41,582 bases of DNA. It comes from Chloroflexota bacterium. GTDB taxonomy: Bacteria; Chloroflexota; Dormibacteria; Dormibacterales; Dormibacteraceae. The number at the start of each line of letters is the position of its first letter. Within the stretch, counting starts at the first letter, position 1. The notes beneath the pieces were generated by a model. That model saw nothing but the letters and a program-made list of their open reading frames with translations. It was not told where the DNA came from and did no database searches. The stretch spans positions 1 to 41,582 of the forward strand of contig VBFO01000113.1 in the NCBI GenBank assembly GCA_005881025.1. Reading direction: 5' to 3'. The translations under genes were made by a program, and so were the position numbers. Shown here one piece after another: positions 7,596 to 30,469 of this stretch.

Positions 7596-7715
7596 ATGGG
7601 AGGAAACCCGGATGGGCGAAACCCGCCTCTGCCGGCATTCGCGTTCTTCGCGAAGCTTGCAGGCACGCGAGTGCGTGCACTCGCGCTATTCGATGGCGCG
7701 CGGACAGCAATCTAA
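7596..7715 (+). other. Structured segment with possible 39-codon ORF (MGGNPDG...) and hairpins
   Basis: Immediately after the terminator T-run, an ATG opens a 39-codon frame beginning MGGNPDGRNPPLPAFAFFAK. The same DNA holds a 15-nt-period near-repeat (GGAGGAAACCCG and GGGCGAAACCCG), the palindrome CTTCGCGAAG (7646-7655) and a hairpin with arms CGCGAGTGC and GCACTCGCG (7666-7685). Its first seven codons match the minus-strand element at 6040-6020 apart from four bases. It has no ribosome-binding site. It may be an intergenic repeat or the 3' end of the PaaK-like transcript rather than a gene. Confidence 0.4.
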
Positions 7716-8911: not shown

Positions 8912-8930
8912 CGCACGCAGGGCGTCGGTC

Positions 8931-10262: not shown

Positions 10263-10263
10263 C

Positions 10264-11283
10264 TCAGCCCTCGGCCGGCTTGGCTCCTGATCGGGACCAC
10301 AGGGTCACTCCCAGGCGGAGATTGCGGAAGACCTCCTCGCTCACGAGGAAGCCCGCGAATATCAGCACGACGCCGAGGAACTCGCCCAGGAAGAAGGACC
10401 AGGTGACGCCGAACCGGTTGAGGCCGCTGGTCACGCCAGGGATGAACGCGCCGAGCGCGATCAAGAGTGTGGCCGGCACGCGCGAGTTGAGCCGGCCCTC
10501 GAGCAGGGCCTGCACGGCCGCCGGCAACGAGGCCACGAGATTCACCGACACCGCGGCCAGCCCGTAAAGCTGCGCGAGCACTGGGGTCTGCACCTTCGCT
10601 CGCAGCAGCTTGCGCTTCGGCATGTACACGTAAGCGGAGTAGATGGCGCCGAACACGAGGCAGAGTGCGCCCGCGATGTTGAAGGGACCCGTCAGCACGC
10701 GCAGGTAACCCGGAAACGCAGTGCCGACCGGGACGCCCGTGGCGGCGTCGACCGCCCAGCCAGGTTGAGGGAGCGGTGCGCTGAGCACCGAGTAAGCAAC
10801 CGCGAGCGAGCCGATCAGCAGGATGCCCATCGCGATGTGAGCGGCAAGGCCTCTTCGTAACGCCGTCGCAGCGATGACCGCCACGCCGCCCGCAAACGCG
10901 ACAGCGAACGCAATGGTGCCGGCGGTCCGAGACCCCGGATAGAGCGGCGTGAACGCAAGCGAGAGCACGCCTCCGATGACGATGGTGACGCCGGCGAAAT
11001 AACCGAATCGCGTCTTGGCCAGCAGGTAGATCGTGCCCGCACCGAGATACGACGCCACGAAGAATGCCCCCATCAGGTACCAGGCGCGATACAGCGGTTC
11101 GCTCCATCCAAAAGCACTGCCGATGAACTCGGTGCCGGCGCTGACGCCGTACCAGAGCAGGCCCATGGCCCACACGAGCTGAAAGCTGTGCCGGCGCTGC
11201 CACCACTGGTCGAGTACGAAGGCGGCGAACAGGAAGCTCAGAACGCTCGACCCGAGGGGCAGCCAGACGTTCAGCGCGCTCAA
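10264..11283 (-). CDS. Polytopic membrane protein of unknown function (9-10 TM)
   Basis: 339 residues with nine or ten hydrophobic segments, at about 7-27, 34-55, 64-88, 94-114, 120-141, 147-170, 196-219, 233-255, 262-282 and 293-315. I do not recognise a transporter family. Short basic loops (MPKRKLLRAK) suggest normal inside-positive topology. It sits between the RpiR regulator (29 nt upstream) and the omega-aminotransferase (1 nt downstream), so an uptake or sensing role for the same substrate is plausible but unproven. The start ATG follows the family-independent rule of the first Met in the first hydrophobic segment. Confidence 0.75.
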   Translation of the reverse strand: MSALNVWLPLGSSVLSFLFAAFVLDQWWQRRHSFQLVWAMGLLWYGVSAGTEFIGSAFGWSEPLYRAWYLMGAFFVASYLGAGTIYLLAKTRFGYFAGVTIVIGGVLSLAFTPLYPGSRTAGTIAFAVAFAGGVAVIAATALRRGLAAHIAMGILLIGSLAVAYSVLSAPLPQPGWAVDAATGVPVGTAFPGYLRVLTGPFNIAGALCLVFGAIYSAYVYMPKRKLLRAKVQTPVLAQLYGLAAVSVNLVASLPAAVQALLEGRLNSRVPATLLIALGAFIPGVTSGLNRFGVTWSFFLGEFLGVVLIFAGFLVSEEVFRNLRLGVTLWSRSGAKPAEG

Positions 11284-11312
11284 CCCGTCCTTAAGACTAA
11301 GGGGTCGCTGGA

Positions 11313-12062
11313 CTACGGTTCGGGGCTGCCGATGACCTCTTTGCCGCTGAGGCGCTCGAGGCTCTGCATGCGCGCCTGGGCGCGTGGGCCGAGTCGAGTC
11401 AGCACTGCGGCCACCACGGCCTCAAGGACGGCCATCGCCCCGACCAGAGAGTCGAATGGTCCAACCGTCTCGACGCTGGTCACCACGACCTGCTTGGCGA
11501 ACGCCGATGCCGGCGACAGCCAGGGGTCGGTGAAAAGGACGACGTTCCCGCCCTGGCTCGAGACGAGCCTGGCGCTGTCGATGGTGTCGGCTTGATAGCG
11601 GCGATAGTCGAACACGACCAGGACGTCGCCCTTGCGCATGTCGAGCAGCTGCTGAGCGGCCGCCGTCCGCTCGGAATCGACGAGCCCGATCCCCGGCCGC
11701 AGCAGGTGCAGCTGTGCCGCGAGGTAGCGGGCGAGCGGCCCGCTGACCCGGCCGCCGAGCACAAGGATCCGCCGCTTGATGTCCGCGAGCAGCTCGACCA
11801 CCTCGTCGACGTCGTGATTCGAGAGCAGCTCCAGCGTGGCCTCCAGGTTGTGGGCCGCTACCAGGAGCGATCTGGTCACGAGCGAGCCCGCCTGCTGTGG
11901 CGATTGCTCCTCCTGGTAGCGCGCGAGCGGGGAGGAGAGCCGCTCCTGCACCTCGAGCCGAAGCGCTTCCTGGAACTCTGGATAGCCGCGAAAGCCGAGC
12001 TTGGTGATGAACCTGGTGACGGTGGGCGCGCTGACGCCCGCCCGCTCGGCGAATCGAGCCAC
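11313..12062 (-). CDS. RpiR-family regulator (HTH + SIS); true N-terminus upstream but without a canonical start
   Basis: An RpiR-type repressor/activator. It has an N-terminal helix-turn-helix (FAERAGVSAPTVTRFITKLG) and a C-terminal SIS domain that senses a phosphosugar or related ligand (RRILVLGGRVSGPLARYLAA, then KGDVLVVFDYRRYQADTI). The listed GTG at 12062 falls inside the conserved N-terminal domain. The same frame continues upstream with WAERKLARVFLASYPIAGL, which is plainly RpiR sequence, back to a TAA at 12153-12155, and no ATG/GTG/TTG occurs in that part. An ATG at 12168 is in another frame and would join by a one-base change in the CCCC run at 12126-12129. The gene is either frameshifted, mis-sequenced, or started at a non-standard codon. 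It is divergent from the PuuD-type gene across a shared operator. Confidence 0.8.
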   Translation of the reverse strand: MARFAERAGVSAPTVTRFITKLGFRGYPEFQEALRLEVQERLSSPLARYQEEQSPQQAGSLVTRSLLVAAHNLEATLELLSNHDVDEVVELLADIKRRILVLGGRVSGPLARYLAAQLHLLRPGIGLVDSERTAAAQQLLDMRKGDVLVVFDYRRYQADTIDSARLVSSQGGNVVLFTDPWLSPASAFAKQVVVTSVETVGPFDSLVGAMAVLEAVVAAVLTRLGPRAQARMQSLERLSGKEVIGSPEP

Positions 12063-12195: not shown

Positions 12196-12894
12196 ATGGC
12201 CGTCAAGACCAGAGGAAAGCCTAGCGCGCCGCGGATCGGCATCACCACGAGCCGCAGCCGTGGGGACGACTACTACATCCCGTACCGCAAGGCGGTACAG
12301 GCCGCGGGTGCGGTCCCTGTCGACCTGCCGGTCGGCACGCGCGAGCTGCCCGACGTGGACGGGCTGCTGCTGCCGGGCGGCTGGGACGTCGACCCGGCCC
12401 TCTACGGCGAGGAGCCGGACCGGAGGCTCGGCGAGGTCGACCGGGAGCTCGACGACACGGAGCTGCGCCTGTTCAAGCAGGCCCGAAGCGAAGGGCTGCC
12501 CGTGCTCGGCATCTGCCGCGGCCAGCAGGTGATCAACGTCGCGCTCGGCGGCTCGCTCGTCCAGCACCTCGACGACCACGACGCGAGAGCGATCGGCCGC
12601 AGTCATCTCGCGCACGGCATCACGGTCAGCCCGACTTCAGAGCTGGGGCGCGCCGCGGGCGCAAGCATGCTGCGCGTGAACAGCCTGCACCACCAGGCCG
12701 TGAGAGAGCTCGCGCCAGGTCTGATCGAGAGCGCGCGCGGCGACGATGGCACCGTCGAGGGCTTGGAAACCAGTGACGGACTGGTGGTCGCCGTGCAGTG
12801 TCATCCCGAGGAGCTCACGGTCGACATGCCTTGGGCGCGCACGCTGTTCGAGCGGTTCGTGGCGCGCGCGGGAAGTCACACGCCCCGCTCGTAG
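12196..12894 (+). CDS. Gamma-glutamyl hydrolase, PuuD-type (peptidase C26)
   Basis: A 232-residue class I glutamine-amidotransferase-fold hydrolase. In the Puu route this family removes glutamate from gamma-glutamyl-GABA and similar N-glutamylated amino acids. The nucleophile elbow is LGICRGQQVINVALGGSL, the catalytic His/Glu are in VQCHPEE, and VNSLHHQAVRELAPG and LLLPGGWDVDPALYGEE are the family substrate-pocket motifs. The ATG at 12196 is chosen because the longer frame upstream would run into the rpiR control region. It converges on the gamma-glutamyl ligase gene with a 19-bp overlap, placing the ligase and hydrolase of one pathway side by side. Confidence 0.9.
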   Translation: MAVKTRGKPSAPRIGITTSRSRGDDYYIPYRKAVQAAGAVPVDLPVGTRELPDVDGLLLPGGWDVDPALYGEEPDRRLGEVDRELDDTELRLFKQARSEGLPVLGICRGQQVINVALGGSLVQHLDDHDARAIGRSHLAHGITVSPTSELGRAAGASMLRVNSLHHQAVRELAPGLIESARGDDGTVEGLETSDGLVVAVQCHPEELTVDMPWARTLFERFVARAGSHTPRS

Positions 12895-14159
12895 CGGTTC
12901 CGCTCCCACTCGGTGACGGTGTTCTGAAACGCCTTCAGCTCCCACCGTCTCGACGTGGCGAAGTAATCGCTGAACTCCTCCCCTAGCGCGCGGCGAAACG
13001 TCTCGTCCACCTCGAAGCAGCGCAGGGCTGACTCGAGCGAACCTGGCAGCATGGCGAGATCGTCGCGTGCGTACGCGTCGCCCACCACGGCATCAGGCGG
13101 AGTCGCCTTGCGGCGCAGGCCGTCGGTGGCGGAAACGATCAGCGCCGCCACGGCGAGATATGGGTTCGCGTCAGCGCCCGGCCGCCGGCATTCGATGCGG
13201 CACATCTCCGCCCGCCCCGGTCGGATCGCGCGCACGGCGCACGAGCGGTTGTCCGGGCCCCAGCTCGCGTTGGTCGGCGCGAAGTAGCCGGGGACGAGGC
13301 GCTTGTAGGAGTTGATCGTCGGGTTGAGCAGCAGTGAGGCGGCCGGCAGGTGGTCCAGCACGCCCGCGATGGCCGAGCGCATCGCGGCTTCATCGGTGGC
13401 AAATGCGTTTTCGCCTTCGCGCCAGCAGGAGAGGTGGACATGCCCGCTCGATCCCTCCTCACCCTGTGCGGTCTTGGCCAGGAACGTGGCCTGCATGCCG
13501 AGCGACGCCGCGACCTCCTTCATCGCCAGCTTCGTGAATGCCGCATCGTCGGCCGCCTGCAAGGCCGGCCGGGCGGCGAGGTTGAGCTCGAGCAGTCCCG
13601 GCGCCGCCTCGGTGTGGACGGCCGTGAGCTCCACGCCAAGCGCCGACAGCGCGGGGCGCAGCCGCGTGACGAGCTGTTCGACGCCACCCAGCTCCGCCAG
13701 GCTGTAGCTGATCCCGCTGGACGCGAACCGGCCATGGCCGTCGCGTACGCGCACCTCGTACTCGATGGCGGCAACGGCCTCGAAGCCGAGACTCGACAGT
13801 CCGTCGAGCGCTCTGCGCAGCACCTCGCGCGAGGCCAGCTCACACGGCCGCCCGTCCGGCCATCTGGGCGTGCCGATGCAAACCATCCACCCGGGCCGCC
13901 ACTCGAGCGGATGCAGGGTCGACGGATCTGGATGCAGGATCAGGTCCGCGGCGCCCGACCGGATGCCGAAGCGCTCGTAGTCGGAGATCGGCGTGTCGAC
14001 GGGGTCGAGGCCAAGCAGCAGGTCGGTCATGGCGGTGCCGTGGCGCAGGGCGGACTGGAACGCTTCTGGCCGCAGCGCCTTGCCGCGGAGCGACCCGTTG
14101 ACGTCGGGCATGCCGAGCATCACGAACTCGGCCTGGTCTACAGAGATTTGCTCACCCAC
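12876..14159 (-). CDS. Glutamine synthetase-like gamma-glutamyl-amine ligase (PuuA/GlnA-type), copy 1
   Basis: 427 residues of glutamine-synthetase fold. Catalytic positions are kept: the metal-binding pair in AAIEYEVRV, Glu in HTEAAPGLLELNL, His in SSGHVHLSCW, the Arg region NASWGPDNRSCAVR, and RIECRRPGADANPYLA. Its N-terminal domain is short, and it lies among amine-catabolic genes rather than ammonium-assimilation genes. This points to the ATP-dependent ligation of glutamate to an amine, as in PuuA, IpuC or GlnA3/GlnA4. It is the last gene of the eight-gene operon and starts (GTG 14159) 22 bp inside the end of the preceding aminotransferase gene. The amine accepted is not known. Confidence 0.9.
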   Translation of the reverse strand: MGEQISVDQAEFVMLGMPDVNGSLRGKALRPEAFQSALRHGTAMTDLLLGLDPVDTPISDYERFGIRSGAADLILHPDPSTLHPLEWRPGWMVCIGTPRWPDGRPCELASREVLRRALDGLSSLGFEAVAAIEYEVRVRDGHGRFASSGISYSLAELGGVEQLVTRLRPALSALGVELTAVHTEAAPGLLELNLAARPALQAADDAAFTKLAMKEVAASLGMQATFLAKTAQGEEGSSGHVHLSCWREGENAFATDEAAMRSAIAGVLDHLPAASLLLNPTINSYKRLVPGYFAPTNASWGPDNRSCAVRAIRPGRAEMCRIECRRPGADANPYLAVAALIVSATDGLRRKATPPDAVVGDAYARDDLAMLPGSLESALRCFEVDETFRRALGEEFSDYFATSRRWELKAFQNTVTEWERNRYERGV

Positions 14160-15442
14160 GCGTCCACCTCGCGCATCACCGCCGCCGTCCGCGACACCAT
14201 CTCGTCGAGCTCCGCATCAGAGCTGACGAAAGGAGGAGCCAGCAGGATCTGGTCGCCGGCGTAGCCGTCGGGCGTCGACTGTGTCGAGCCGATGAGCAGG
14301 CCGTGGTCGAGCGCCACGTCCTCGGTCCGGTGCGCGACGTCAAGGTGGGCGGGCAGAAACGAGCTGCCGTCCCGCGGGTCGAGCAGATCGAACCCGAGCA
14401 GGAACCCCCGGCCGCGCACCTCGCCAACGATCGAGATCCCGGCCAGCGCTTGCTTCAACTGCTCCAGCAGCCGCGGCCCGCGGTCGCGCACGCGCTCGAC
14501 CATGCGCTCATCCACGAGCGCGTCGATGACCGCGAGCGCCGTGGCACAGGACAAAGGCGCGCCGTCCCACGTGTGGCCGAGGTCGAACGACCGCGAGCCG
14601 GCGGCGATGGCGTCATACACGTGCTGCTTGCACAGCACCGCGCTGATCGCGGCGTAGCCGGCGCCGAGGCCTTTTCCCACCGTGACGATGTCGGGCTCGA
14701 TCGGCAGCTGCTGGTAGGCGAACCAGGTGCCGAGCCGGCCCATACCCGTGACCACCTCGTCGAAGCACACGACGAAGCCGTGCTTCTCGCGTCGCTCGGC
14801 CAGGCCTCGCCAGAATTCGTCTGGCGGCGAGTAGGCGGGACGCGCCGCGGCGCCCACTGGTTCGCAGAAGAATGCTGCGATGGTTCCGGGGTCGGCCTGC
14901 TCCAACTGCTCGTCGAGCTCGCGCAGCGACGGCGAGATGTGCAGGTGTCGGGAGAGGTAAGGGCCGTATGGCGCCTGAAGAGTGTGGGCACGACCACTCA
15001 GCGCCAGGGTCGCCATCGTCGAGCCGTGGTAAGCCTGCGCGAAAGAGATCACCTGCCAGCGGTCAGCCTCACCGCGGTCGACGTGATACTGGCGCGCGAG
15101 CCGCAGAGCAGTCTCGTTGGCCTCGGATCCGCTGGATGCGAAGCGCACGCGCGCCATCTCCGGAGCCGCCACCTCCAGCAACCGCGCCGCCAGGTCCTCC
15201 TGGGGCTGGTTGGTGAAGTGGTCCATGTACATGTAGGCGATCTCCTCGGCCTGTCTCGCGCCGGCATCGACGACCGCATGCGCGACATGCCCGAGGTTCG
15301 ACACCATGGCTCCGCCCGAGCACGCATCGAGGATCTTCCCGCCAGAGTCGGTGTAGAGCCAGACGCCTTCGCCGCGCTCGATGCTCGGATAGCCGAGGTC
15401 GAGAAAGCGGGGGAAGGTGCTCGTGCGGTCGGCGGTGATCAT
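14138..15442 (-). CDS. Class III aminotransferase, copy A
   Basis: A 434-residue PLP aminotransferase. It has the N-terminal GEGVWLYTDSGGKILDACSG, cofactor contacts in FASSGSEANETALRLAR and FAQAYHGSTMATL, the Asp in CFDEVVTGMGRLG and the Schiff-base Lys in VTVGKGLGAGYAAIS (about residue 255). The reading frame extends far upstream, but the ATG at 15442 overlaps the amidotransferase stop as ATGA and matches the homologous start of its paralogue at 17450. The two share the same signatures (AYSPP.EFWRGLAERR, GHTWDGAP), so the pair arose by duplication, with the amidotransferase gene between them. The amino donor is undetermined. Confidence 0.93.
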   Translation of the reverse strand: MITADRTSTFPRFLDLGYPSIERGEGVWLYTDSGGKILDACSGGAMVSNLGHVAHAVVDAGARQAEEIAYMYMDHFTNQPQEDLAARLLEVAAPEMARVRFASSGSEANETALRLARQYHVDRGEADRWQVISFAQAYHGSTMATLALSGRAHTLQAPYGPYLSRHLHISPSLRELDEQLEQADPGTIAAFFCEPVGAAARPAYSPPDEFWRGLAERREKHGFVVCFDEVVTGMGRLGTWFAYQQLPIEPDIVTVGKGLGAGYAAISAVLCKQHVYDAIAAGSRSFDLGHTWDGAPLSCATALAVIDALVDERMVERVRDRGPRLLEQLKQALAGISIVGEVRGRGFLLGFDLLDPRDGSSFLPAHLDVAHRTEDVALDHGLLIGSTQSTPDGYAGDQILLAPPFVSSDAELDEMVSRTAAVMREVDAWVSKSL

Positions 15443-16131
15443 CGGCCGCGGGTCGCGATCGCGTCCCGGAAGCGATCGAGCAGGCGCCAGGTCCTCCGCC
15501 TGGCGTCGGCGGCGATCCGCATGGTCTCCGCAAGCAGACCCTCCGGATCGACGCCTTCGGCCCTGAGCTCGTGCGGGTACGCGCGCACCCAGCCCTCCAT
15601 GATCTCCGGCGTCACCTCGGGATGGAACTGCAGCCCGAGGCTGCGCCCGGCCACGAACGCCTGCGGGCCGATCTCTGTCTCCGCGATCACTGTCGATCCG
15701 GGAGGCGGGGTGAACGTGTCGAAATGCCATTGGAACCACGGCCCCTCGCCGATCAGGTCAGGGTCCTTCGTACGCACCGGCAGCCATCCGATCTCCGACT
15801 GCTCGGACCGATAGTTCTGCGCGCCGAGGATCCGCGCCAGCATCTGCCCGCCAAAGCAGAGGCCGAGGATCGGCACGTCGGCGGCGCGTGCGTCCTCGAA
15901 CAGCTTGACCTCGCGCGGGATGAACGGGATCGAATCGTCAAAGGCCGCGAACTCCGAGCCGAGCGAGACGATCAGGTCGTAGTCGCGTGGATCGACCTCC
16001 CGGTCTCCTTGGTCGATGCGAAGCGTGTCCACCTTCGCGTCCTGATCGTGGAGCCAGCCAGTCATCAGGCCGGGCGGCGTGGGTGCCTCGTGCTGAAGGA
16101 TCAACGTGCGCGGCTTCCAGGCGGAGGTCAT
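15439..16131 (-). CDS. Class I glutamine amidotransferase domain protein
   Basis: 230 residues with the GMP-synthase-type amidotransferase fold standing alone. The nucleophile Cys is in LGLCFGGQMLARILG (about residue 91), and His and Glu are in LQFHPEVTPE (about residue 170), so the Cys-His-Glu triad is complete. No synthase partner domain is fused or adjacent. In this operon it may act as a second gamma-glutamyl hydrolase on glutamylated intermediates, or channel ammonia to an aminotransferase product; both are inference. ATGA overlaps bind it to the aminotransferase genes on both sides. Confidence 0.9.
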   Translation of the reverse strand: MTSAWKPRTLILQHEAPTPPGLMTGWLHDQDAKVDTLRIDQGDREVDPRDYDLIVSLGSEFAAFDDSIPFIPREVKLFEDARAADVPILGLCFGGQMLARILGAQNYRSEQSEIGWLPVRTKDPDLIGEGPWFQWHFDTFTPPPGSTVIAETEIGPQAFVAGRSLGLQFHPEVTPEIMEGWVRAYPHELRAEGVDPEGLLAETMRIAADARRRTWRLLDRFRDAIATRGR

Positions 16132-17450
16132 CGGAGCTCGCGCTCGATGTCGCGCGCGACAGTGTCAACAGTCGACGCGAAACGCGCCACCATCTCCGCC
16201 AGGTCGGCGTCGGGGGTCGTGAACGGCGGGGCGAACAGCGTCTGGTCGCCCGCGAAACCGTCCCTCGTCGGCATGGTGGAGTAAACGATGACGCCTTGCT
16301 CCATCGCCGTGAGGTCGATCCGTCGGGCGACCCCGAGCTCGGGCGGCAGGAACGACCGGCCATCGCGCGGGTCCACGTACTCGACCCCGAGCAGGAAGCC
16401 TTGGCCGCGGACCTCGTGGATCATGGGACTGCCCTTCAGCGCGGACGCCAGCTCGTCCCTCAGCGATGGTCCACGCTCTCGCACCCTCTCGATCAGCCGC
16501 TCGTCCCGCAGGACCTCGAGCACCTTCAGGCCGACCGCGCACGAAACCGGGGCGCCGTCCCAGGTATGGCCCACGGTGAGCTTGCGGGACCCTGCGGCGA
16601 ACGCCTGGTACACGTGGTCCGTGCAAAGGACCGCGCCGATGGCCGCGTAGCCCGCGCCGAGCCCCTTGGCCGTGGCGATGACATCCGGCACCAGCGGCAG
16701 CTTCTCGGCCGCGAACCACTCGCCCGTCCGGCCGATCCCGGTGACCACCTCGTCGTAGCAGATGAGAAAGCCATGACGGTCGCGGCGCTCCGCCAGCCCG
16801 CGCCAGAACCTCTCGGGCGGTGAGTAGGCGGGCAGCGCCGCGGCGCTGATCGGCTCGCAGAAGTACGCAGACACGTTCTCCGGTCCGGCCTCCTCGAGCA
16901 CCGCGTCGAGCGCATCAAGCGCCGCCTGGCCCGTGGGGTCGAAGCGCCAGGTGCTGGGTGGGATGTGCAGGTGCCTGGGCAGGTATGGCCCGAAGGGCCG
17001 CTGCAGCCCTGGGCGTCCGGTCAGGGCCAGCGTCTCCATGGTCGGTCCGTGATAGGCCTGCGCCGGCGAGATGACCTGCCAGCGCTTCATGTCTCCGCGC
17101 TCGACGTGGTAGCTGCGCGCGAGCTGGACCACTGTCTCGTTGGCTTCGGCGCCGCCGGTGACGAAACGGACGCGCGTGAAGCCGGGCGGTGCGACCTCCA
17201 CCAGCTCCGCGGCCAGCTGCTCGCGCGGCGGGTTGGTGAGCCGCTCGTTGTGCACATAAGAAAGACGCGAGGCTTGCGCGGACGCCGCGGCGATGACATC
17301 TCGCCTGCCATGACCCAGGGTGGCCGCCATCGAGCCGCCGCTCATGGCGTCGAGGTAGCGCTTGCCGGTGCTGTCTTCGACCCACGCTCCCTCACCGCGC
17401 ACCACGACCGGGTAGTGGCGGTCGAGCTCGAGCTGAAAGACAGCGCTCAT
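16128..17450 (-). CDS. Class III aminotransferase, copy B
   Basis: A 440-residue paralogue of the aminotransferase at 14138-15442. Key sites are FVTGGAEANETVVQLAR, AQAYHGPTMETLALTGR, the Asp in CYDEVVTGIGRTG, the Schiff-base Lys in IATAKGLGAGYAAIGAVL (about residue 260) and GHTWDGAPVSCAVG. Two diverged copies in one operon suggest two different amine/aldehyde pairs, or a heteromer. The start ATG overlaps the kinase stop by 4 nt (ATGA). Confidence 0.93.
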   Translation of the reverse strand: MSAVFQLELDRHYPVVVRGEGAWVEDSTGKRYLDAMSGGSMAATLGHGRRDVIAAASAQASRLSYVHNERLTNPPREQLAAELVEVAPPGFTRVRFVTGGAEANETVVQLARSYHVERGDMKRWQVISPAQAYHGPTMETLALTGRPGLQRPFGPYLPRHLHIPPSTWRFDPTGQAALDALDAVLEEAGPENVSAYFCEPISAAALPAYSPPERFWRGLAERRDRHGFLICYDEVVTGIGRTGEWFAAEKLPLVPDVIATAKGLGAGYAAIGAVLCTDHVYQAFAAGSRKLTVGHTWDGAPVSCAVGLKVLEVLRDERLIERVRERGPSLRDELASALKGSPMIHEVRGQGFLLGVEYVDPRDGRSFLPPELGVARRIDLTAMEQGVIVYSTMPTRDGFAGDQTLFAPPFTTPDADLAEMVARFASTVDTVARDIERELR

Positions 17451-18940
17451 GTCTGCGCGAAGACCGGCTTCAGCGCGTAGTACACGTCCCGATAGCGGCG
17501 GTAGGCCTCGTCATACATCGCGTGGCGTTCGGGATCGGGCACCTGCTCCTCCGGCCGGTAAGACACGAATGCCTTGACCGCGTCCGCGACGCGTGCGAAG
17601 AGGCCGGCGCCGACGGCGGCCAGGATGGCCGCGCCGGTGGACGTCGTCTCGACGCTGGTGGGCACGCGCACGGGCAGCCCGGTGACATCGGCCTTGATCT
17701 GACGCCACAGCACACCCTTCGCACCACCGCCGACGATCGTCAGGCGGCGCACGTCCAGCCCTGCGTTGTGCATCGCTTCGAGGATGTCGCGCAGTGCGAA
17801 TGCGCTGCCCTCGAGCAGCGCCCGCGTGAGATGCCCTTTGCCGTGGGCGAGCGTCAGCCCGTAGAACACACCACGCGCCGCCCCGTTCCATTCGGGCGCC
17901 ATCGCGCCCTGCATGCAGGGAAGGAAGACGAGACCCTCGCATCCTGGCGGCACGTCGGCGGCCGGGGCCGTGATCCGGTCGTAGTCATCGGTGTCGCAGA
18001 ACTGGTCCCGCCACCAGCGCAGGTTGCCGCCCGAGACGAAGCCTGGATTCTCGAGCAGCCAGCCGTCCGGGTCGGCGTGCGGATGGCACTCGACCAGCAT
18101 GGTCGGATCCTCTCGCGGAGTGGCGGACACGGCGCACACCGGTTCCGCGGTGCCGGCGACGTCGCAGACCTCGCCCGGAGCCAACACCCCGGCGCCAAGA
18201 GTGGCCGCCATCTCGTCACCGCAGCCGGTGACCACGACTGTCTCCGGCGACAGCCCGGTCGCGCTCGCAAACTCGCGCGTCACCTTGCCAACCGCGGTCG
18301 TACCGCCGGCCAGCTCGGGCAGCATGCGCCGGTCCACGCCCGTGACGCCGAGCACCGGCTCGGACCAGGTCCGGGTGCGCGGGTCGAGAAGCGCCAGCGA
18401 GGATGCGTTCGAGTAGTCGACCGCATCGACACCGGCAGCCTCGCGGAGCACGTACGACCCCGGCGGCATCAGGCGCGCAGCCCGGGCAAAGACCTCCGGC
18501 TCGCGCCGCTGCACCCACAACGCCTTGAAGACTGCGTGGGACGAATCCAGGTTCGCACCGACGTGGTGGTAGAAGTCCGGCGGCGACATCTTCTCCGCCA
18601 CGGCGGTCGCCTCCGCTTCGGCGCGCCGGTCCATCCAGATCATGGCCGGGCGCAGCGGCCGGCCGTTGGCGTCGCAGACGACCATGCCGTCCAGCTGCGA
18701 TCCGAACGAGATCCCCTTGACCGCCGACGGCCCCTCGGGCACGGAGCGGAGCACCTCCGCCACGGTCTCGTGCACGGCTTCGGCCCAGAGCCTCGGGTCC
18801 TGCTCGGCCCATCCCGGCTGCGGAAACGAAACGTCGTAGCCGCGGTACGCCGAGGCGACGAGACTTCCCTCCGCGTCATGCAGGACGGTGTTGGTCCCCT
18901 GGCTGCCCACGTCACAGCCGATGACGTAGGGACCGCTCAC
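17447..18940 (-). CDS. FGGY-family carbohydrate kinase (xylulokinase-like)
   Basis: A 497-residue sugar or sugar-alcohol kinase. The N-terminal ATPase phosphate-1 motif is YVIGCDVGSQGTNTVL. The catalytic Asp is in VVVTGCGDEMAATLGAG (about residue 243), with adenosine-binding LTIVGGGAKGVLWRQI near residue 405 and TTSTGAAILAAVG beyond. It would phosphorylate a ketose or polyol from ATP. Combined with the dehydrogenase before it and the aldolase before that, it makes a complete oxidise-phosphorylate-cleave sugar module inside an amine operon. The xylulokinase label is only the closest broad family; substrate specificity in FGGY kinases is hard to read. Confidence 0.92.
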   Translation of the reverse strand: MSGPYVIGCDVGSQGTNTVLHDAEGSLVASAYRGYDVSFPQPGWAEQDPRLWAEAVHETVAEVLRSVPEGPSAVKGISFGSQLDGMVVCDANGRPLRPAMIWMDRRAEAEATAVAEKMSPPDFYHHVGANLDSSHAVFKALWVQRREPEVFARAARLMPPGSYVLREAAGVDAVDYSNASSLALLDPRTRTWSEPVLGVTGVDRRMLPELAGGTTAVGKVTREFASATGLSPETVVVTGCGDEMAATLGAGVLAPGEVCDVAGTAEPVCAVSATPREDPTMLVECHPHADPDGWLLENPGFVSGGNLRWWRDQFCDTDDYDRITAPAADVPPGCEGLVFLPCMQGAMAPEWNGAARGVFYGLTLAHGKGHLTRALLEGSAFALRDILEAMHNAGLDVRRLTIVGGGAKGVLWRQIKADVTGLPVRVPTSVETTSTGAAILAAVGAGLFARVADAVKAFVSYRPEEQVPDPERHAMYDEAYRRYRDVYYALKPVFAQT

Positions 18941-19989
18941 GGAACGATTACGACTTTGAGACCGGAACCCGAGCGGATGGTTGCAAACGCTTCACCGATC
19001 TGGTCGAGCGGGAACCGGTGTGTGACCACCGCCGCCAGCTCCTTCCGGCGCCGCTCCAGGTAGTCCATCGTGATCCTGTACTGGCGGTGGGTGGCGCCGT
19101 ACGCGCCCAGGATCGCGAGCTCTTTGTAGTGGAGCTCGTTCATGTCCAGCGGGCTCACAGGGTCGTGCTTCGGCAGGCCGGCGAAGTAGACGATCCGCGC
19201 CCGCTTGGAGGCCATCTGCAGCGCGGCCTGCTGCGCCTTCTTCGACGGCGCCGCGACGCACACGCGCTCGGGTCCCTTGCCGCCGGTCGCCTCCAGCGCC
19301 TGGGCGACGCCGTTGTCCTCGGCCGCGACCCACGCCTCGTCGACGAAAGAGCCGACCGCCTTCAGGGCGATCTCGAGGCGCTGCTGGTTGACGTCTGTCA
19401 GAAACACGCGCTTGGCACCGCGGTCACGCGCCATCATCGCCTGCCAGCAGCCGATCGGGCCGGAGCCGAGGATGACGACGCTGTCGCCGATGTTGACGTC
19501 GAGCATCTCGATGCCGTTGAGGGCGCACGCGAATGGATCGGCGATCGTGGCGACGTCGGACGGCAGGTCGGGCGGCAGGGGGATCAGATTCTTCATCGCG
19601 ATCGGAGGCACCGTTGCGTACTCGGCGTACGCGCCGGGAAAGGGCTCGTACCCGTAAAGCAGGTGCTGGTCGCAGAGGTTCTGGAACCCGTCCATGCACC
19701 AATGGCAGCGCCCACAGGTGAGGATGGAGCCCAGGAAGACGCGGTCGCCTTTCTTCACGCCCGGTGGAAGGACGGCATTCGGACCCACCTGCTCGAGGAT
19801 GCCGACCGGCTCGTGGCCCAGGATCCACGGCGCGGGCGCCTTGGGATCGCCGTTGAAGAAGGTGCGCGCGTCGGTGCCGCAGATGCCGCAGGCCTCGACG
19901 TGCAGGATCGCGCCTTCGGGGTCGAGCTCCGGCTCCGGCGCCTTACGGATCTCGACGGCGTCGACCGCCGTCATGAACGCCGCCCTCAT
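18937..19989 (-). CDS. Zinc-dependent medium-chain alcohol/polyol dehydrogenase
   Basis: A 350-residue MDR-family dehydrogenase. Catalytic zinc ligands are Cys in VEACGICGTDAR and the His of ILGHEPVG. The structural zinc lobe keeps all four cysteines (CGRCHWCMDGFQNLC). The Rossmann fold shows VILGSGPIGCWQAMMARD. The third catalytic-zinc position, usually the Glu of an EPLAC-type motif, reads DPFACALNG here, a conservative Asp. This subgroup (sorbitol, threonine and polyol dehydrogenases) oxidises a secondary hydroxyl with NAD(P). The frame is open far upstream, but ATG at 19989 begins the conserved fold and overlaps the aldolase stop as ATGA. The substrate is probably the sugar-alcohol part of whatever the operon degrades. 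Confidence 0.92.
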   Translation of the reverse strand: MRAAFMTAVDAVEIRKAPEPELDPEGAILHVEACGICGTDARTFFNGDPKAPAPWILGHEPVGILEQVGPNAVLPPGVKKGDRVFLGSILTCGRCHWCMDGFQNLCDQHLLYGYEPFPGAYAEYATVPPIAMKNLIPLPPDLPSDVATIADPFACALNGIEMLDVNIGDSVVILGSGPIGCWQAMMARDRGAKRVFLTDVNQQRLEIALKAVGSFVDEAWVAAEDNGVAQALEATGGKGPERVCVAAPSKKAQQAALQMASKRARIVYFAGLPKHDPVSPLDMNELHYKELAILGAYGATHRQYRITMDYLERRRKELAAVVTHRFPLDQIGEAFATIRSGSGLKVVIVP

Positions 19990-20828
19990 CGCGCCGCCAC
20001 GGTGCCGAGCTCCTCCTGCAAAGCCGACATCGCTCTGGTGGCGGGCCAGCGCTCGCGGATCACGTGCGACAGCGCTCGCGTGATCGCCTCGGGGGACGAG
20101 TGCATGAAGATGTTGCGGCCCACCGAGCAGCCGATCGCCCCGGCCGTCCTGGCCAGCTCCATACGCCGCAGCAGCTCGGCGTCTTCGAGCCGCGATCCGC
20201 CGGCCAGCACGACGGGGATGCCGTTGGCGGCCTCGACCAGCTTGGCGAAGGACTTCTCGTCGCCGGGCCAGTTGGTCTTGATGATGTCCGCGCCAAGCTC
20301 GCCGCACAGCCTCACGTTGCGGCGCAGGTACTCGAACCCGTAGCGGTCCTTCAGCTCGCTCACCGACGCGTATGTGGTGGGGAACTCGGCCTCGGCGATG
20401 AACGGGATGCCCAACGCCTCGCACGCCCGGCCCACACCGGCGAGGGTGCGGATCATGCCCGGCTCCGAGCCGGTGCCCAGGGCGGTGAAGAGCACGACCG
20501 CGTCGGCGCCCAGGCGTGCCGCCTCCTCGACCTCGGCGATCTGCACGATCTCTGGCTCGGGGCGGTCCGGGTTGGCCGATGCGGAAAGCAGGAGGGCGAG
20601 CGACGTCGTCGGAGCAAACGCGGGCTCGGCGACCCGGATCATGCCCTTCGACATCATGATCACGTTGGCCCCGCCCTTCACCGTCTCAGAGGTGCGCGTC
20701 GTGATGTCGGCCAGGGGTTCGAGGAAGGTGGGCGAGGTCATGCCGTGGTCGAGGGCGCAGATGATCGAGACGCCTTCGCGGTCGATGACGCGTTTCAGCC
20801 GCATCGCTTTGCCGACGCTTCGAATCAC
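19986..20828 (-). CDS. Class I (Schiff-base) aldolase, DhnA/FbaB/LsrF family
   Basis: A 280-residue TIM-barrel lyase of the DeoC/LacD/LsrF superfamily. The family opening is VSIICALDHGMTSP. The Schiff-base Lys is in ADIIKTNWPGDE (about residue 184). The phosphate-binding end is VVLAGGSRLED plus GAIGCSVGRNIF. It probably cleaves (or thiolyses, as LsrF does) a phosphorylated keto-sugar made by the neighbouring kinase. Translation begins at GTG, overlapping the GntR stop as GTGA, which makes it the first enzyme gene of the operon. Confidence 0.9.
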   Translation of the reverse strand: MIRSVGKAMRLKRVIDREGVSIICALDHGMTSPTFLEPLADITTRTSETVKGGANVIMMSKGMIRVAEPAFAPTTSLALLLSASANPDRPEPEIVQIAEVEEAARLGADAVVLFTALGTGSEPGMIRTLAGVGRACEALGIPFIAEAEFPTTYASVSELKDRYGFEYLRRNVRLCGELGADIIKTNWPGDEKSFAKLVEAANGIPVVLAGGSRLEDAELLRRMELARTAGAIGCSVGRNIFMHSSPEAITRALSHVIRERWPATRAMSALQEELGTVAAR

Positions 20829-21559
20829 GACGACCTCCTTCCTGGCCCGCGCCGCAGCACGGTGAACTCGAAGGCGTTCGCCAGGTGGTACTCGTACGAG
20901 GAGAGGACGGCCGTCCCCTCCTCGGTGTAGTCCACCTGCCAGATCGCCAGCATCTGCTCCCCTCTGGGCACCCCCAACCGGCGCGCGACGGTGACGTCGG
21001 CCGTGACCGGCTGAAAGGTGGCCACTCCGTATGAGATGACGATTCCCAGGTCGCGCTCGAGCACCTCGTAGATCGACCGCTTGAGCATCTCATCCGCGAG
21101 CTCGGGCCGGTCGGCGACGAGCCGCCCGGGCAGGATATCGCGCGAAAGCACCACCGGCTTGCCGTCGGCGGTCCTGATCCGCTCCACCACCAGCACGTCC
21201 GCGCCTGGCTGAAGCTCGAGGCGCGTCGCCTCGCTGACCGTGGCCGGCTCGAGCCAGTGGCGGCACTCGCCGACACCGGCCTCCATGCCCGCGGCCCTGA
21301 TCGCGTCGGTGACCCCGAAGTTCAAATCCAGGCTGTTGGCCACGCGGCGCCCGGTGGTGACGAACGTGCCCGAGCCCCACATGCGCCGGATCAGCCCCTC
21401 ACTCTCCAGCGCCCTGAGCGCGTCGCGCAGTGTCGCGCGGGACACGCCGAACTCGGTTGCCAGGGCGGGCTCTGAGGGCAGGCGGGAACCCGCCGGGAGC
21501 ACCCCGCGATCGATCCGATGGCTGAGCTCGTCCCTGACCTGGACGCTGCGGGTGGGCAT
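20825..21559 (-). CDS. GntR-family regulator, HutC/FarR subfamily (UTRA domain)
   Basis: A 244-residue repressor with a winged helix (VRDELSHRIDRGVLPAGSRL, then ATEFGVSRATLRDALRALES) and a C-terminal UTRA ligand domain (about residues 90-235). UTRA proteins usually sense the pathway substrate or a phosphorylated sugar. ATG 21559 is chosen over TTG 21586 because the best promoter puts transcription start at about 21563, so the TTG would not be transcribed. That makes the message almost leaderless. The operator-like dyad TTGTCTGACAA lies in the promoter spacer, indicating autoregulation. It heads the eight-gene operon and most likely also controls the divergent permease operon. Confidence 0.92.
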   Translation of the reverse strand: MPTRSVQVRDELSHRIDRGVLPAGSRLPSEPALATEFGVSRATLRDALRALESEGLIRRMWGSGTFVTTGRRVANSLDLNFGVTDAIRAAGMEAGVGECRHWLEPATVSEATRLELQPGADVLVVERIRTADGKPVVLSRDILPGRLVADRPELADEMLKRSIYEVLERDLGIVISYGVATFQPVTADVTVARRLGVPRGEQMLAIWQVDYTEEGTAVLSSYEYHLANAFEFTVLRRGPGRRSS

Positions 21560-21569
21560 GGGGCTTGTA

Positions 21570-21599
21570 AGTATCTTGTCAGACAACTTGCGGGGTCAA
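21570..21599 (-). promoter_or_regulatory. Promoter of the GntR operon with embedded operator
   Basis: On the minus strand, TTGACC (21599-21594) and GATACT (21575-21570) are 18 bp apart. The dyad TTGTC-A-GACAA (21576-21586) fills the space between them. A repressor bound there would block polymerase. The dyad has the form expected for HutC-type GntR operators; binding is inferred. Confidence 0.55.
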
Positions 21600-21635: not shown

Positions 21636-21664
21636 TTGACGAGATCCAGGGCCTCACCTAGCAT
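21636..21664 (+). promoter_or_regulatory. Promoter of the permease/ligase operon
   Basis: TTGACG (21636-21641) and TAGCAT (21659-21664) have exactly 17 bp spacing. Transcription should begin near 21671, leaving a ~70-nt leader before the TTG start of the permease gene at 21741. Confidence 0.5.
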
Positions 21665-21670
21665 TCGCCC

Positions 21671-21695
21671 ACGGCTTCAAGCCGTCAGACAACTT
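21671..21695. promoter_or_regulatory. Operator cluster: palindrome plus second GntR half-site copy
   Basis: The perfect dyad ACGGCTT-C-AAGCCGT (21671-21685) begins at the expected transcription start. The 12-mer GTCAGACAACTT (21684-21695) repeats the one at 21578-21589 in the GntR promoter. Placement just after the start site suits roadblock repression by the same GntR protein. The two signals overlap by two bases. Confidence 0.5.
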
Positions 21696-21740: not shown

Positions 21741-23339
21741 TTGTCTCAAGAACGGCGCAAGGTAGGGTCGGTCGCCTATCAGGAGGCCAGTCCCGCGTAC
21801 TTCGCGAAGCGGGCACTCAAACGTCACGCGGCGTTCTGGTCGCTGTGGTCGCTGGGCGTGGCGGCGGTCATCTCCGGCGACTTCTACGGCTGGAACGTCG
21901 GGCTCGCGGTTGGCGGCTTCGGCGGACTGCTGATCGCCACCATCTTCATCGCGGTCATGTATTACGGCCTGGTCTTCAGCATCGCCGAGATGTCACCGGC
22001 CCTTCCTCACACTGGGGGCGCTTACTCGTTTGCCCGCTCCGCCTTCGGGCCATGGGGAGGGTTCGTCACCGGTCTGGCCGAGAACATGGAGTACGTCATC
22101 ACCCCTGCCGTCGTGGTCGGCGCGATGGGCGTTCTCATGCAGAGCATCTTCCAGAACCCACCCTTCAACGTCACCGGAAACCCGTGGTGGAACAGCCCGG
22201 TGACCTGGTTCGTCGTGTTCTACATCATCTTCGTCGCCATCAATGTCCGAGGCATCGTGGCCACGATGCGCTTCACGGTGGCGATCAACGTGCTCGCGCT
22301 GGGCATCCTTGCCTTCTTCTTCCTCGCCGTAATTTTTTCGGGGAAGCTGGATTTCGGCTTGCTTTTCAACATCGCGCCGACCAGCGGGAACTCGTTCTTC
22401 TTGCCCTTCGGCATCGGGGGCATCTTCACAGCCATCCCATTCGCCATCTGGTTCTACCTGGCGATCGAGGAGCTGCCGCTGGCCGCCGAGGAATCGCATG
22501 ACCCGAAGAGGGACGTCCCCAAAGCTGCGGTCTGGGGCCTGACCACACTGATCATCACGGGGGCCCTGATCTTCCTGCTGAACCCAGCCGTCGGTGGCGG
22601 AGCCAAGGCCCTGGGCAACTCGGGACAGCCACTGTTCGACGGCTTGATCGCCGTGTTCGGGACTGGGGTCGGTACGACCGCGCTGGCCCTGATCGGACTC
22701 TGTGGGCTGATCGCCAGCTTCTTCACGATCATCTACGCCTACGGTCGCAACACGTACTCGCTATCGCGCGCCGGTTACTTTCCGCACTTCCTGTCGGTCA
22801 CACACCCGACGCTCAAGACGCCGCACATCGCGCTCGTCGCCGGCGGGGTGGTCGGTTGCATCCTGGCCATCGTCGTGTACTTCATCAGCCAGCGCGGCGG
22901 GGCGTCTGCCGGCCAGTTTGTGGCCTCGCTCCTCAACATGGCAGTGTTCGGTGCCGTGATCTCGTATGCGATGCAGTGCGCCTCGTTCATCTTTCTCCGA
23001 CGGCGTTTGCCGAACATCGACCGTCCCTATCGCAGCCCGGTGGGTGTATGGGGCGCGGGCATCGCCGGGGTGATCGCACTCGTCTCGCTGGTCTCGCTCT
23101 ACACGAACCCTCTGTACGTCTGGGGCGTCGTCGGGACGCTCGTGTACTTCTTGCTTGGGGTCGCCTACTTCGCAATCGCCGGACGCCACCGCCTGGTGCT
23201 GTCCCCCGAGGAGGAATTCGCGTTGACAGCGGGCCAGCACGGCCACCCGGAGACCGAGGGCTACGGTCAGACGCACGTCACCGACATTCCTGGGGGTGGA
23301 GGGGCAGAGCCCGCTCCGCAGCAGGCCCCCACAGGCTGA
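21741..23339 (+). CDS. APC-superfamily amine permease (ethanolamine permease type)
   Basis: A 532-residue, about 12-TM amino acid/polyamine/organocation transporter. The first segments read SLGVAAVISGDFYGWNVGLA, then VFSIAEMSPALPHTGGAYSF and FGPWGGFVTGLAENMEYV. These are, from memory, closest to bacterial ethanolamine permeases of the family. It should import the amine that the next gene glutamylates. The start is TTG at 21741, with GGGAGGGGG ahead at 8-nt spacing; the longer open frame upstream overlaps the GntR gene and its promoter. The hydrophilic C-terminus (residues ~495-532, rich in Gly, His and Pro) is cytosolic. First gene of the rightward operon. Confidence 0.88.
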   Translation: MSQERRKVGSVAYQEASPAYFAKRALKRHAAFWSLWSLGVAAVISGDFYGWNVGLAVGGFGGLLIATIFIAVMYYGLVFSIAEMSPALPHTGGAYSFARSAFGPWGGFVTGLAENMEYVITPAVVVGAMGVLMQSIFQNPPFNVTGNPWWNSPVTWFVVFYIIFVAINVRGIVATMRFTVAINVLALGILAFFFLAVIFSGKLDFGLLFNIAPTSGNSFFLPFGIGGIFTAIPFAIWFYLAIEELPLAAEESHDPKRDVPKAAVWGLTTLIITGALIFLLNPAVGGGAKALGNSGQPLFDGLIAVFGTGVGTTALALIGLCGLIASFFTIIYAYGRNTYSLSRAGYFPHFLSVTHPTLKTPHIALVAGGVVGCILAIVVYFISQRGGASAGQFVASLLNMAVFGAVISYAMQCASFIFLRRRLPNIDRPYRSPVGVWGAGIAGVIALVSLVSLYTNPLYVWGVVGTLVYFLLGVAYFAIAGRHRLVLSPEEEFALTAGQHGHPETEGYGQTHVTDIPGGGGAEPAPQQAPTG

Positions 23340-23358
23340 GTTCGTCATATGGTCAGCA

Positions 23359-23388
23359 GCTGGTGAGCGCGCGAGAGCGCTCACCAGC
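23359..23388 (+). other. Intercistronic 12-bp hairpin between permease and ligase genes
   Basis: Arms GCTGGTGAGCGC (23359-23370) and GCGCTCACCAGC (23377-23388) pair perfectly around a 6-nt loop. It ends 15 nt before the Shine-Dalgarno of the next gene and has no T-tract. An mRNA-stability or processing element that sets the ratio of transporter to enzymes fits better than a terminator. Confidence 0.6.
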
Positions 23389-23415
23389 GAACATTCAGGA
23401 CCAGGAGGTGTCGAG

Positions 23416-24792
23416 TTGCTGACCAAGGAACCCGCCGCAGGACACGCCCGCAAGCCAGGCCTCAGCACTGAACAGCTTGGCGTGGCCGTCAAGGCAGGCG
23501 ACATCGACACTGTGGTCGTCGCGTTCACCGACATGCAGGGGCGCCTCATGGGCAAGCGGGTGGAGGCCGAGTACTTCATGGAGACGGCCGCGCACGGGGA
23601 GGCGGTGGAGGGCTGCAACTACCTTCTGGCGCTCGACATGGAGATGGATCCGGTACCGGGTTACAAGATCGCCAACTGGGACAGCGGTTATGGCGACTTC
23701 GACATGCAGCCGGACATGGGCACCTTGCGGCGCATCCCGTGGCTCGAGGCGACCGCGCTCGTGCTGTGCGATGTGGCGTGGCACGACGGAACTCCCGTGC
23801 GTCCCTCGCCACGGCAGGTGCTCAGGGCGCAGGTCGAGCGTGCGCGCAAGCTCGGTTTCGAGCCGATGTTCGGCTCCGAGCTGGAGTTCTATCTATTCAA
23901 AGAGACGTTCGCCGAGGCCCACGCGAAGGGATACAACAACCTCACGCCATCGGTGCCGTACATCCTCGACTATCACGTGCTCGCGACCAGCTACGACGAG
24001 CCGTTCATCCGCGCAGTCCGCAATGGCATGAAGGGCGCCGGGATCCCGGTCGAAAGCTCCAAGGGAGAGGCGTGGCCGGGGCAGCAGGAGATCAACTTCA
24101 GGTTCTCCGACGCCGTGACGATGGCGGACAACCACGTCATCTACAAAAACGGCATCAAGGAGATGGCGCACCAGCGCGGGTGCTCCGTCACGTTCATGGC
24201 CAAGCCGGATCACACCTGGATCGGCAGCTCGTGCCATGTCCATTCGAGCCTTTGGCGGGAGGGACGGAACGCATTCGATGGCGAGTCCCCGACCTTCAAG
24301 CAGTACCTGGCCGGTCACATCGCCGGCGCAGCTGAGATCGCCATCTTCCTCGCTCCCAACGTGAACTCCTACAAGCGGTACGCGGCAGCTTCGTGGGCGC
24401 CGACCACGCTGGCATGGGGACATGACAACCGCACGTGCGGGTTCCGGATCGTCGGCCATGGGCAGCACCTGCGCACCGAGTCCCGGATCCCTGGAGCCGA
24501 CGTGAACCCTTACCTGACGTTTGCGGCTCTCATCGCCGCTGGGCTCAGTGGCATCGAGCAGAAGCTCGAGCTTGGTCCCGAGTTCAAGGGCAACGCCTAC
24601 GAGTCCGACGTGCAGAGGTTCCCTCACACGCTCCGCGAGGCGATCGCTGCGCTGGAGAAAGGCAAGATGGCGCGCAAGGCGATGGGCGACGACGTCATCG
24701 ACCACTACCTCAACTACGCGCGCACGGAGCAGGCGCTGTTCGACAAGGTCGTCACCAACTACGAGCGCGAAAGGCTCTTCGAGCGGGGATGA
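23416..24792 (+). CDS. Glutamine synthetase-like gamma-glutamyl-amine ligase, copy 2
   Basis: 458 residues of glutamine-synthetase fold with the catalytic set in place: Glu pair in FGSELEFYLFK, Glu in EAWPGQQEINFRF, His in GSSCHVHSSLWREG, the Arg region AWGHDNRTCGFRIV and TESRIPGADVNPYLTFAAL. Being next to an ethanolamine-type permease and followed by an aldehyde dehydrogenase and an SDR, it most resembles the GlnA4/IpuC logic: glutamate is attached to an amino alcohol or amine to protect it during oxidation. The start is TTG at 23416, five bases after a near-perfect Shine-Dalgarno AGGAGGTG. It differs clearly from copy 1, so the two ligases probably accept different amines. Confidence 0.92.
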   Translation: MLTKEPAAGHARKPGLSTEQLGVAVKAGDIDTVVVAFTDMQGRLMGKRVEAEYFMETAAHGEAVEGCNYLLALDMEMDPVPGYKIANWDSGYGDFDMQPDMGTLRRIPWLEATALVLCDVAWHDGTPVRPSPRQVLRAQVERARKLGFEPMFGSELEFYLFKETFAEAHAKGYNNLTPSVPYILDYHVLATSYDEPFIRAVRNGMKGAGIPVESSKGEAWPGQQEINFRFSDAVTMADNHVIYKNGIKEMAHQRGCSVTFMAKPDHTWIGSSCHVHSSLWREGRNAFDGESPTFKQYLAGHIAGAAEIAIFLAPNVNSYKRYAAASWAPTTLAWGHDNRTCGFRIVGHGQHLRTESRIPGADVNPYLTFAALIAAGLSGIEQKLELGPEFKGNAYESDVQRFPHTLREAIAALEKGKMARKAMGDDVIDHYLNYARTEQALFDKVVTNYERERLFERG

Positions 24793-27576: not shown

Positions 27577-27875
27577 CATGGGCTGCGCTGCTGGTGGCGG
27601 CAGGGGTCTGCTACGCGATCAAGCTGGCCGGCCTGTCGCTGCCCCAACGGTTCCTGAAGGACCCGCGGATCCAGCGCACGGTTCCACTGCTGCCGGTCGC
27701 TCTGCTGGCCGCCCTGATCGCGACGCAGACCTTCGCGTCCGGCCAGCACCTGGTGCTGGATGTGCGGGCGGCCGCGCTTGGAGTGGCTGCGATCGCGGTG
27801 CTGTTACGCGCTCCGTTCCTGATTGTGGTGGCCGCCGGCGCCGCCACGGCCGCCCTGCTGCGCCTAGCGCTCTAG
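27573..27875 (+). CDS. azlD: AzlD-family exporter subunit
   Basis: A 100-residue, three- to four-TM partner of AzlC (WAALLVAAGVCYAIKLAG, then the conserved RTVPLLPVALLAALIA). The start ATG overlaps the AzlC stop as ATGA. It closes the rightward operon and overlaps the convergent alpha-mannosidase gene by 12 bp. Confidence 0.9.
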   Translation: MTWAALLVAAGVCYAIKLAGLSLPQRFLKDPRIQRTVPLLPVALLAALIATQTFASGQHLVLDVRAAALGVAAIAVLLRAPFLIVVAAGAATAALLRLAL

Positions 27876-30449: not shown

Positions 30450-30469
30450 CGGGCGATTAGTGTGTGGCA

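Follow-up and report, generated by a model that had tools for sequence, protein, structure and literature searches.

Contig VBFO01000113.1 of a soil Chloroflexota bacterium (assembly GCA_005881025.1; the window is the whole stretch analyzed, 41,582 nucleotides) carries a gene cluster in which enzymes of the sort that dismantle polyols stand together with enzymes of the sort that handle amines. It comprises an eight-gene operon on the minus strand, a divergent operon headed by an ethanolamine-type permease (Eat), and a convergent gene for a C26-type hydrolase. We tentatively favor the reading that a GntR protein represses all of them as one regulon, through which the cell breaks down an amine-bearing polyol (an amino alcohol or an amino-alditol). 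The reading is built on five observations: the gene content, its conserved linkage, its co-inheritance, an operator motif shared by the divergent promoters, and a distinctive signature in the pocket of the kinase.

Gene content, regulation, and conservation of the cluster

The genes are as follows, with the eight-gene operon first, from its promoter end.

20825-21559, minus strand: GntR/HutC-type (UTRA) repressor, ATG start (Pfam PF00392 and PF07702)
19986-20828, minus strand: DhnA-type class I aldolase, DeoC/LacD family (PF01791, 103 bits)
18937-19989, minus strand: zinc-dependent medium-chain alcohol dehydrogenase (Zn-ADH), like threonine, inosose, and polyol dehydrogenases (PF08240, ADH_N, and PF00107, ADH_zinc_N)
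17447-18940, minus strand: FGGY kinase, placed by tree in clade 1 of an amine-associated FGGY family (PF00370 and PF02782; pocket signature D84, E243, E266)
16128-17450, minus strand: class III aminotransferase B, AT_B (PF00202, Aminotran_3, 270 bits)
15439-16131, minus strand: class I glutamine amidotransferase-like hydrolase, GATase, PRK07053-like (PF00117, 41 bits)
14138-15442, minus strand: class III aminotransferase A, AT_A (PF00202, Aminotran_3, 260 bits)
12876-14159, minus strand: glutamine synthetase (GS)-like gamma-glutamyl ligase 1, GS1 (PF00120, Gln-synt_C, 292 bits)
21741-23339, plus strand: APC-family ethanolamine-type permease, Eat (TIGR00908, 377.5 bits)
23296-24792, plus strand: GS-like ligase 2, GS2, in the GlnA4 position (PF00120, 324 bits)
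24789-26156, plus strand: aldehyde dehydrogenase (ALDH), with an ATG at 24789 that overlaps the end of ligase 2 (PF00171, 553 bits)
26156-26923, plus strand: short-chain dehydrogenase (SDR), PRK06057-like, with an ATG at 26156 (NF004713, 374.8 bits, cut-off 404)
12196-12894, plus strand: peptidase C26/gamma-glutamyl hydrolase, PuuD-like, convergent with the end of the operon (PF07722, 165 bits)

An earlier note, made from the sequence alone, had described the eight overlapping minus-strand genes. Pfam bears out all eight of its family calls, their coordinates are correct, and the overlaps are exact, with six consecutive ones of 4 nucleotides and then one of 22 at the ligase. We also keep its start for the GntR gene, since the ATG at 21559 is the best placed, and a longer alternative from a TTG at 21586 would extend into the operator described below. 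The deduction that genes overlapping in this way must make up one pathway is not supported. Coupling by overlap alone is weak evidence because several relatives have short gaps instead; the gene set is what is kept across genera, families, and phyla, and the part consisting of the aminotransferases, GATase, and GS1 can be separated from the rest. Moreover, the span 12876-21559 omits the divergent operon (21741-26923) and the C26 gene, both of which belong with the eight.

In an NCBIfam profile search, none of the eight operon proteins reaches a cut-off, and the substrate therefore cannot be read from their names. The top matches of the Zn-ADH are Tdh and IolM, both under their cut-offs, and GS1 falls far under those of GlnA and GGputSyn. 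The solved structure closest to the aldolase is MJ0400, and the two aminotransferases are 57% identical to each other. The divergent operon is of a more familiar kind. Eat narrowly misses the ethanolamine permease cut-off of TIGR00908 (377.5 versus 381.75), and ligase 2, for which alternative starts exist, probably begins downstream of 23339. In Streptomyces, the glnA4 cluster encodes an SDR, an ALDH, a gamma-glutamylethanolamide synthetase, a putative ethanolamine transporter, and a glutamine amidotransferase (PMC6529630). A permease, a GS-like ligase, an ALDH, an SDR, and an amidotransferase are likewise clustered here: by composition, the divergent operon plus the C26 gene, which most family-f1 relatives also have next to the cluster, is the same set, with a putative ligase specificity.

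Between the two operons, a scan of the GntR/Eat region found two promoters, one per strand (0.0 expected), each accompanied by an operator element.

21570-21599, minus strand: sigma-70-type promoter of the GntR operon, from the consensus scan (TTGACC-18-GATACT)
21636-21664, plus strand: sigma-70-type promoter of the permease operon, from the consensus scan (TTGACG-17-TAGCAT)
21576-21586, no strand: operator 1, the perfect palindrome TTGTCAGACAA, within the spacer of the GntR promoter
21683-21693, no strand: operator 2, an imperfect copy, CGTCAGACAAC, shortly after the permease promoter

The motif conserved at both promoters is TTGTCNGACAA, and operator 2 is kept as AAGTTGTCTGACG in relatives. 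Nearly all clade-1 loci that span the GntR/Eat region retain the palindrome, and a relaxed version of the pattern has 29 matches in 736 kb of loci, nearly all of them in the GntR intergenic region. It is absent at that position from clade-2 loci and from loci that carry the aminotransferase genes by themselves. Because one conserved motif marks both promoters, the GntR repressor most likely controls both operons.

How faithfully do these genes travel together? Among 110 genomes of the class, the kinase is found in 12, the window's own and 11 others at 75-79% identity, with the next matches being paralogs at 39% or less. The DhnA aldolase is in exactly the same 12 genomes and Eat in 11 of them (the contig of the twelfth is cut), and neither occurs elsewhere in the 110 at the thresholds used. 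The carriers are patchy within a genus and span two families; therefore, the cassette is inherited on an all-or-none basis. A scan of 84,980 species genomes recovered the same GntR-DhnA-ADH-FGGY block in metagenome-assembled genomes of Actinomycetota, usually with Eat plus ligase 2, SDR, or ALDH genes. By our count, an Eat homologue is present in 18 of the 21 clade-1 contigs with enough flanking sequence, and two of the remaining three have C26 or GATase genes. In the kinase tree, the Chloroflexota members of clade 1 nest inside those of Actinomycetota, which suggests transfer of the cassette. Locus L067 has the most compact form, with ligase 2 and Eat on one side and GntR-DhnA-ADH-FGGY-C26-ALDH as one operon on the other; its C26 gene overlaps FGGY by 4 nucleotides. 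It is a second, independent fusion of amine genes to the kinase operon.

The AT_B-GATase-AT_A-GS1 segment (the AT module) behaves differently from this core. Orthologs of AT_B and GS1 are also found in genomes without the kinase, and six kinase-less relatives (G072, G073, G079, G097, G103, and G101) keep the module alone. In the first five, a second GntR-family regulator and AT_A-GS1 come after AT_B-GATase on contigs that extend far enough. The FCD domain of this regulator was shown for G097, and the other four have similar sequences; in G101, an open reading frame without assignment occupies its position. All six have an ALDH gene divergent from AT_B, and those with sufficiently long contigs have an APC-type permease next. 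Genome G076 has both modules, on different contigs, with the AT part beside an FCD-like gene. Clusters that link the module to the core have no FCD gene, and at least three arrangements occur: the module follows FGGY in the same operon (family f1), stands divergently, behind Eat (family f4), or converges on FGGY (locus L060). The module is thus a predicted accessory amine pathway that also exists alone, and its lack of a regulator of its own when linked argues that its union with the core is functional. The earlier note had named separate loci under different regulators as the mark of a chance fusion. Since the module stands alone in six relatives, with an FCD-type regulator wherever the contig extends to it, and on a separate contig in G076, this is the situation for the AT half; it is not the situation for the link between the sugar genes and the Eat/ligase operon, which the note had left out.

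The FGGY kinase family and its pocket

The kinase scores above the cut-offs of PF00370 and PF02782, and its catalytic D242 is invariant. The tree joins clades 1 and 2 into one FGGY group (support, 100/96), the second clade having members in Anaerolineae and other Chloroflexota, Acidobacteriota, Propionibacteriaceae, and Bacillota. We accordingly assign the kinase, on sequence grounds, to an FGGY family of two clades that has no name. In the alignment, both clades share D84, E243, E266-P267, H135, H286, and W351, residues that are absent or nearly so in XylB-like paralogs: D84 is H in XylB, E243 is N in XylB and Q in GlpK, and E266-P267 is G-V in XylB types. The glycerol contacts of GlpK are Arg83, Glu84, Tyr135, Asp245, and Phe270 (PMC3245297). 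The window's kinase has L, D, S, D, and P in these columns, and the signature changes of the clades fall on the contact columns or their neighbors. Compared with GlpK, the predicted pocket therefore lacks a positive charge and has two more acids, E243 and E266. Two named kinases were rejected as identities. Xylulokinase XylB scores 365.7 against a cut-off of 380.25, and its Met-His motif and the N after the catalytic Asp are replaced by L83/D84/E243. Glycerol kinase GlpK scores 214.5 against 590, and R83, E84, Y135, and F270 are L, D, S, and P by alignment.

The permeases of clade-2 loci L079 and L089 pass TIGR00908 (415.6 and 395.2 versus 381.75), and EutH (PF04346) lies near the clade-2 kinase in L086, with homologues in L084 and L087. 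Unrelated families of ethanolamine-type transporter, Eat and EutH, thus stand beside one kinase family, which suggests that its substrate is cationic. The clade-1 relative L083 has an ABC system as its divergent transporter, and the nearest matches of the binding protein, though weak, are 2-aminoethylphosphonate binders. Locus L060, with an oligopeptide-type ABC system, is an exception to the pattern.

The sugar-type trio of aldolase, dehydrogenase, and kinase is supported as something other than a chance neighbor of the amine genes because of its near-constant company of amine transport or gamma-glutamyl genes, the shared operator, and the acidic kinase pocket. The combination of sugar and amine genes put forward in the earlier note stands, on evidence other than the note's and with co-inheritance added to these grounds, for the trio and the Eat/ligase operon; the separable AT/GATase/ligase half is an add-on.

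Clade 2 has a different set of partners. In several loci (L079:8587-15199, L069-L075, L081, and L085-L087), FGGY occurs with a dehydrogenase like glycerol-1-phosphate dehydrogenase (Fe-ADH_2), which replaces the Zn-ADH, a HAD-IIA phosphatase, and a conserved TIM-barrel protein that belongs to no known family. The model of this last protein is of high quality (predicted local distance difference test [pLDDT] score, 93), and its matches in the PDB are generic barrels of many functions. In Eubacterium callanderi (L086:18278-19384), EutH is directly 3' of such a TIM-barrel gene, near the FGGY cluster. In L076, a DhnA homologue was found in a clade-2 cluster and the TIM-barrel gene was not, which hints that the two proteins do similar work. 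A Shinella plasmid cluster of FGGY, Fe-ADH, HAD, and FBA has a clade-2-like context, but its kinase is without the signature and was rejected as a member.

A possible route and its rivals

What might such a regulon do? Binding by the repressor, the substrate, the order of reactions, and each step beyond the identity of the genes are what we infer from the observations above. Eat would import the cation, and a GS-like ligase would cap its amine as a gamma-glutamyl amide. The Zn-ADH could then oxidize a secondary alcohol to a ketone and the FGGY kinase phosphorylate the polyol end, so that the DhnA aldolase might split the ketose phosphate into triose phosphate and a (gamma-glutamyl-)amino-aldehyde. 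The ALDH would oxidize this aldehyde, the C26 hydrolase or GATase would remove the glutamyl cap, and the aminotransferases would pass the amino group to a keto acid, with the AT module serving as an accessory. The kinase may instead precede the dehydrogenase, as clade 2 has a glycerol-1-phosphate-type Fe-ADH_2 in place of the Zn-ADH. The proposed order employs nearly every gene. The substrate with both amine and polyol parts proposed in the earlier note, an amino-polyol, is a reasonable class for the core, the aminotransferase half being an add-on.

Several observations weigh against this route. Only alignments place the acidic residues in the pocket, for which the AlphaFold2 model of the kinase (pLDDT, 46) is too poor, and GlpK and LsrK also have an acid at position 84. 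No enzyme of the cluster reaches a substrate-specific model. Some Anaerolineae clade-2 kinases adjoin sugar-type ABC transporters and no amine transporters, and L083 carries the sugar trio with no ligase nearby. Finally, the divergent operon alone could take ethanolamine to glycine, as proposed for Streptomyces (PMC6529630), the sugar trio then being unexplained.

The last point leads to the main rival, doubtful but serious, in which one repressor governs two pathways. A GlnA4-type conversion of ethanolamine to glycine (Eat, GS2, SDR, ALDH, and C26) would operate beside a plain polyol pathway (Zn-ADH, FGGY, and DhnA) for nutrients that arrive together, such as the ethanolamine and glycerol halves of a membrane lipid. 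In its favor, the divergent operon has the gene content of the glnA4 cluster of S. coelicolor (PMC6529630), the PDB entry closest to one clade-2 kinase is a glycerol kinase, and GlpD- or GlpA-like dehydrogenases, or the Fe-ADH_2 dehydrogenase, are found in some of the clade-2 clusters. However, a glycerol route requires no aldolase, the kinase pocket gains E243 and E266 and is without the Arg83 and Phe270 of glycerol kinase, and the L067 kinase operon itself carries an amine hydrolase and an ALDH. An amino-polyol is our best guess at the substrate, one we would put slightly below an even chance; a regulon that merges two ordinary pathways follows closely.

Could the aldolase run in the opposite direction? 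Aldolases are reversible, and DhnA might condense an ethanolamine-derived aldehyde with triose phosphate in a form of C2 assimilation, leaving the kinase and dehydrogenase to process the resulting sugar. Ethanolamine-type transporters do dominate, and the aminotransferases could perhaps convert ethanolamine to glycolaldehyde. Yet the aminotransferases are missing from most Actinomycetota clade-1 clusters, and the kinase would act on an amine-free product, contrary to its pocket signature; we consider this improbable. Least probable of all is that unrelated operons merely adjoin here by chance: this would suit the AT module, which is separable, has its own regulator in kinase-less relatives, and is on a separate contig in G076, but that module joined the core in three different arrangements, and for the core itself chance is contradicted by the all-or-none co-inheritance of the sugar trio with Eat and by their conserved common operator.

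If the amino-polyol route is correct, two catabolic logics, the shielding of an amine by gamma-glutamylation and cleavage by way of a kinase and an aldolase, would be combined in one pathway, and Chloroflexota and Actinomycetota of soil, most of them uncultured, would have in it a source of both carbon and nitrogen. The FGGY kinases are regarded as carbohydrate kinases whose few substrates are neutral or acidic, and an amine specificity would extend that list; there is a real chance that the specificity is new. It is possible, though we hold this with less confidence than the regulon itself, that the cluster represents a widespread, undescribed catabolism of amino-polyols, with an amino-polyol kinase distributed across Chloroflexota, Actinomycetota, Acidobacteriota, and Bacillota. 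The gamma-glutamyl cap would then protect the amine during the breakdown of the carbon chain by polyol-type enzymes.

Flanking genes and comparison with known systems

On the minus strand of the window at 7712-12062 is a neighboring group headed by an RpiR regulator (11313-12062), with an open reading frame without a Pfam match, a class III aminotransferase over the PRK06062 cut-off, and a PaaK-like protein; L042 likewise has the aminotransferase and the PaaK-like gene next to its cluster. At 27864-30536 is a GH38 alpha-mannosidase gene; in L016, L018, and L022, its homologue has as a neighbor another FGGY paralog, of the XylB-like kind.

In agreement with the earlier note, no pathway with this gene set turned up in the literature searched, whether for FGGY with AraM, for EutH with FGGY, or for gamma-glutamylation with aldolase. 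Its parts resemble several known systems. The S. coelicolor glnA4 cluster (SCO1610-SCO1615) shares the SDR, ALDH, gamma-glutamyl ligase, and glutamine amidotransferase, with an ethanolamine-type permease in other Streptomyces, but it has a different regulator and no aldolase, Zn-ADH, FGGY kinase, or class III aminotransferases (PMC6529630). The Puu-type gamma-glutamyl-putrescine pathway has the same logic of ligase, ALDH, C26 hydrolase, and aminotransferase; gamma-glutamylputrescine synthetase itself (NF045547) was rejected as an identity for the ligases, which score 217 and 209 against a cut-off of 650. To our knowledge, the sugar trio is absent from the Puu pathway.

The AT module has a counterpart on plasmid pYJN5-2 of Paenarthrobacter sp. 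YJN-5, which has an ALDH, a class III aminotransferase (57%), a GS-like ligase, a C26 hydrolase, and an FCD regulator; unlike the cluster of the window, it has no sugar trio and does have 5-oxoprolinase genes. On this plasmid (L109:12558-25756), the ALDH-aminotransferase-ligase set is duplicated and inverted; 5-oxoprolinase and FCD regulators accompany it, and two copies of IS21 lie nearby.

For the trio, the degradation of autoinducer 2 (AI-2) similarly pairs an FGGY kinase (LsrK) with a DhnA-type aldolase (LsrF). An Lsr/AI-2 identity was rejected, the proteins scoring far under both models (218.8 versus 528 for LsrK and 93.7 versus 297 for LsrF), as was ADH synthase (171 versus 299 for TIGR01949 and 209.5 versus 241 for PRK07226). 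Polyol and ketose pathways, with their dehydrogenase, FGGY kinase, and aldolase, follow the same scheme of oxidizing, phosphorylating, and cleaving. In contrast to these, the trio of the window is tied to an amine permease and a gamma-glutamyl ligase, and the pocket of its kinase is acidic rather than XylB- or GlpK-like.

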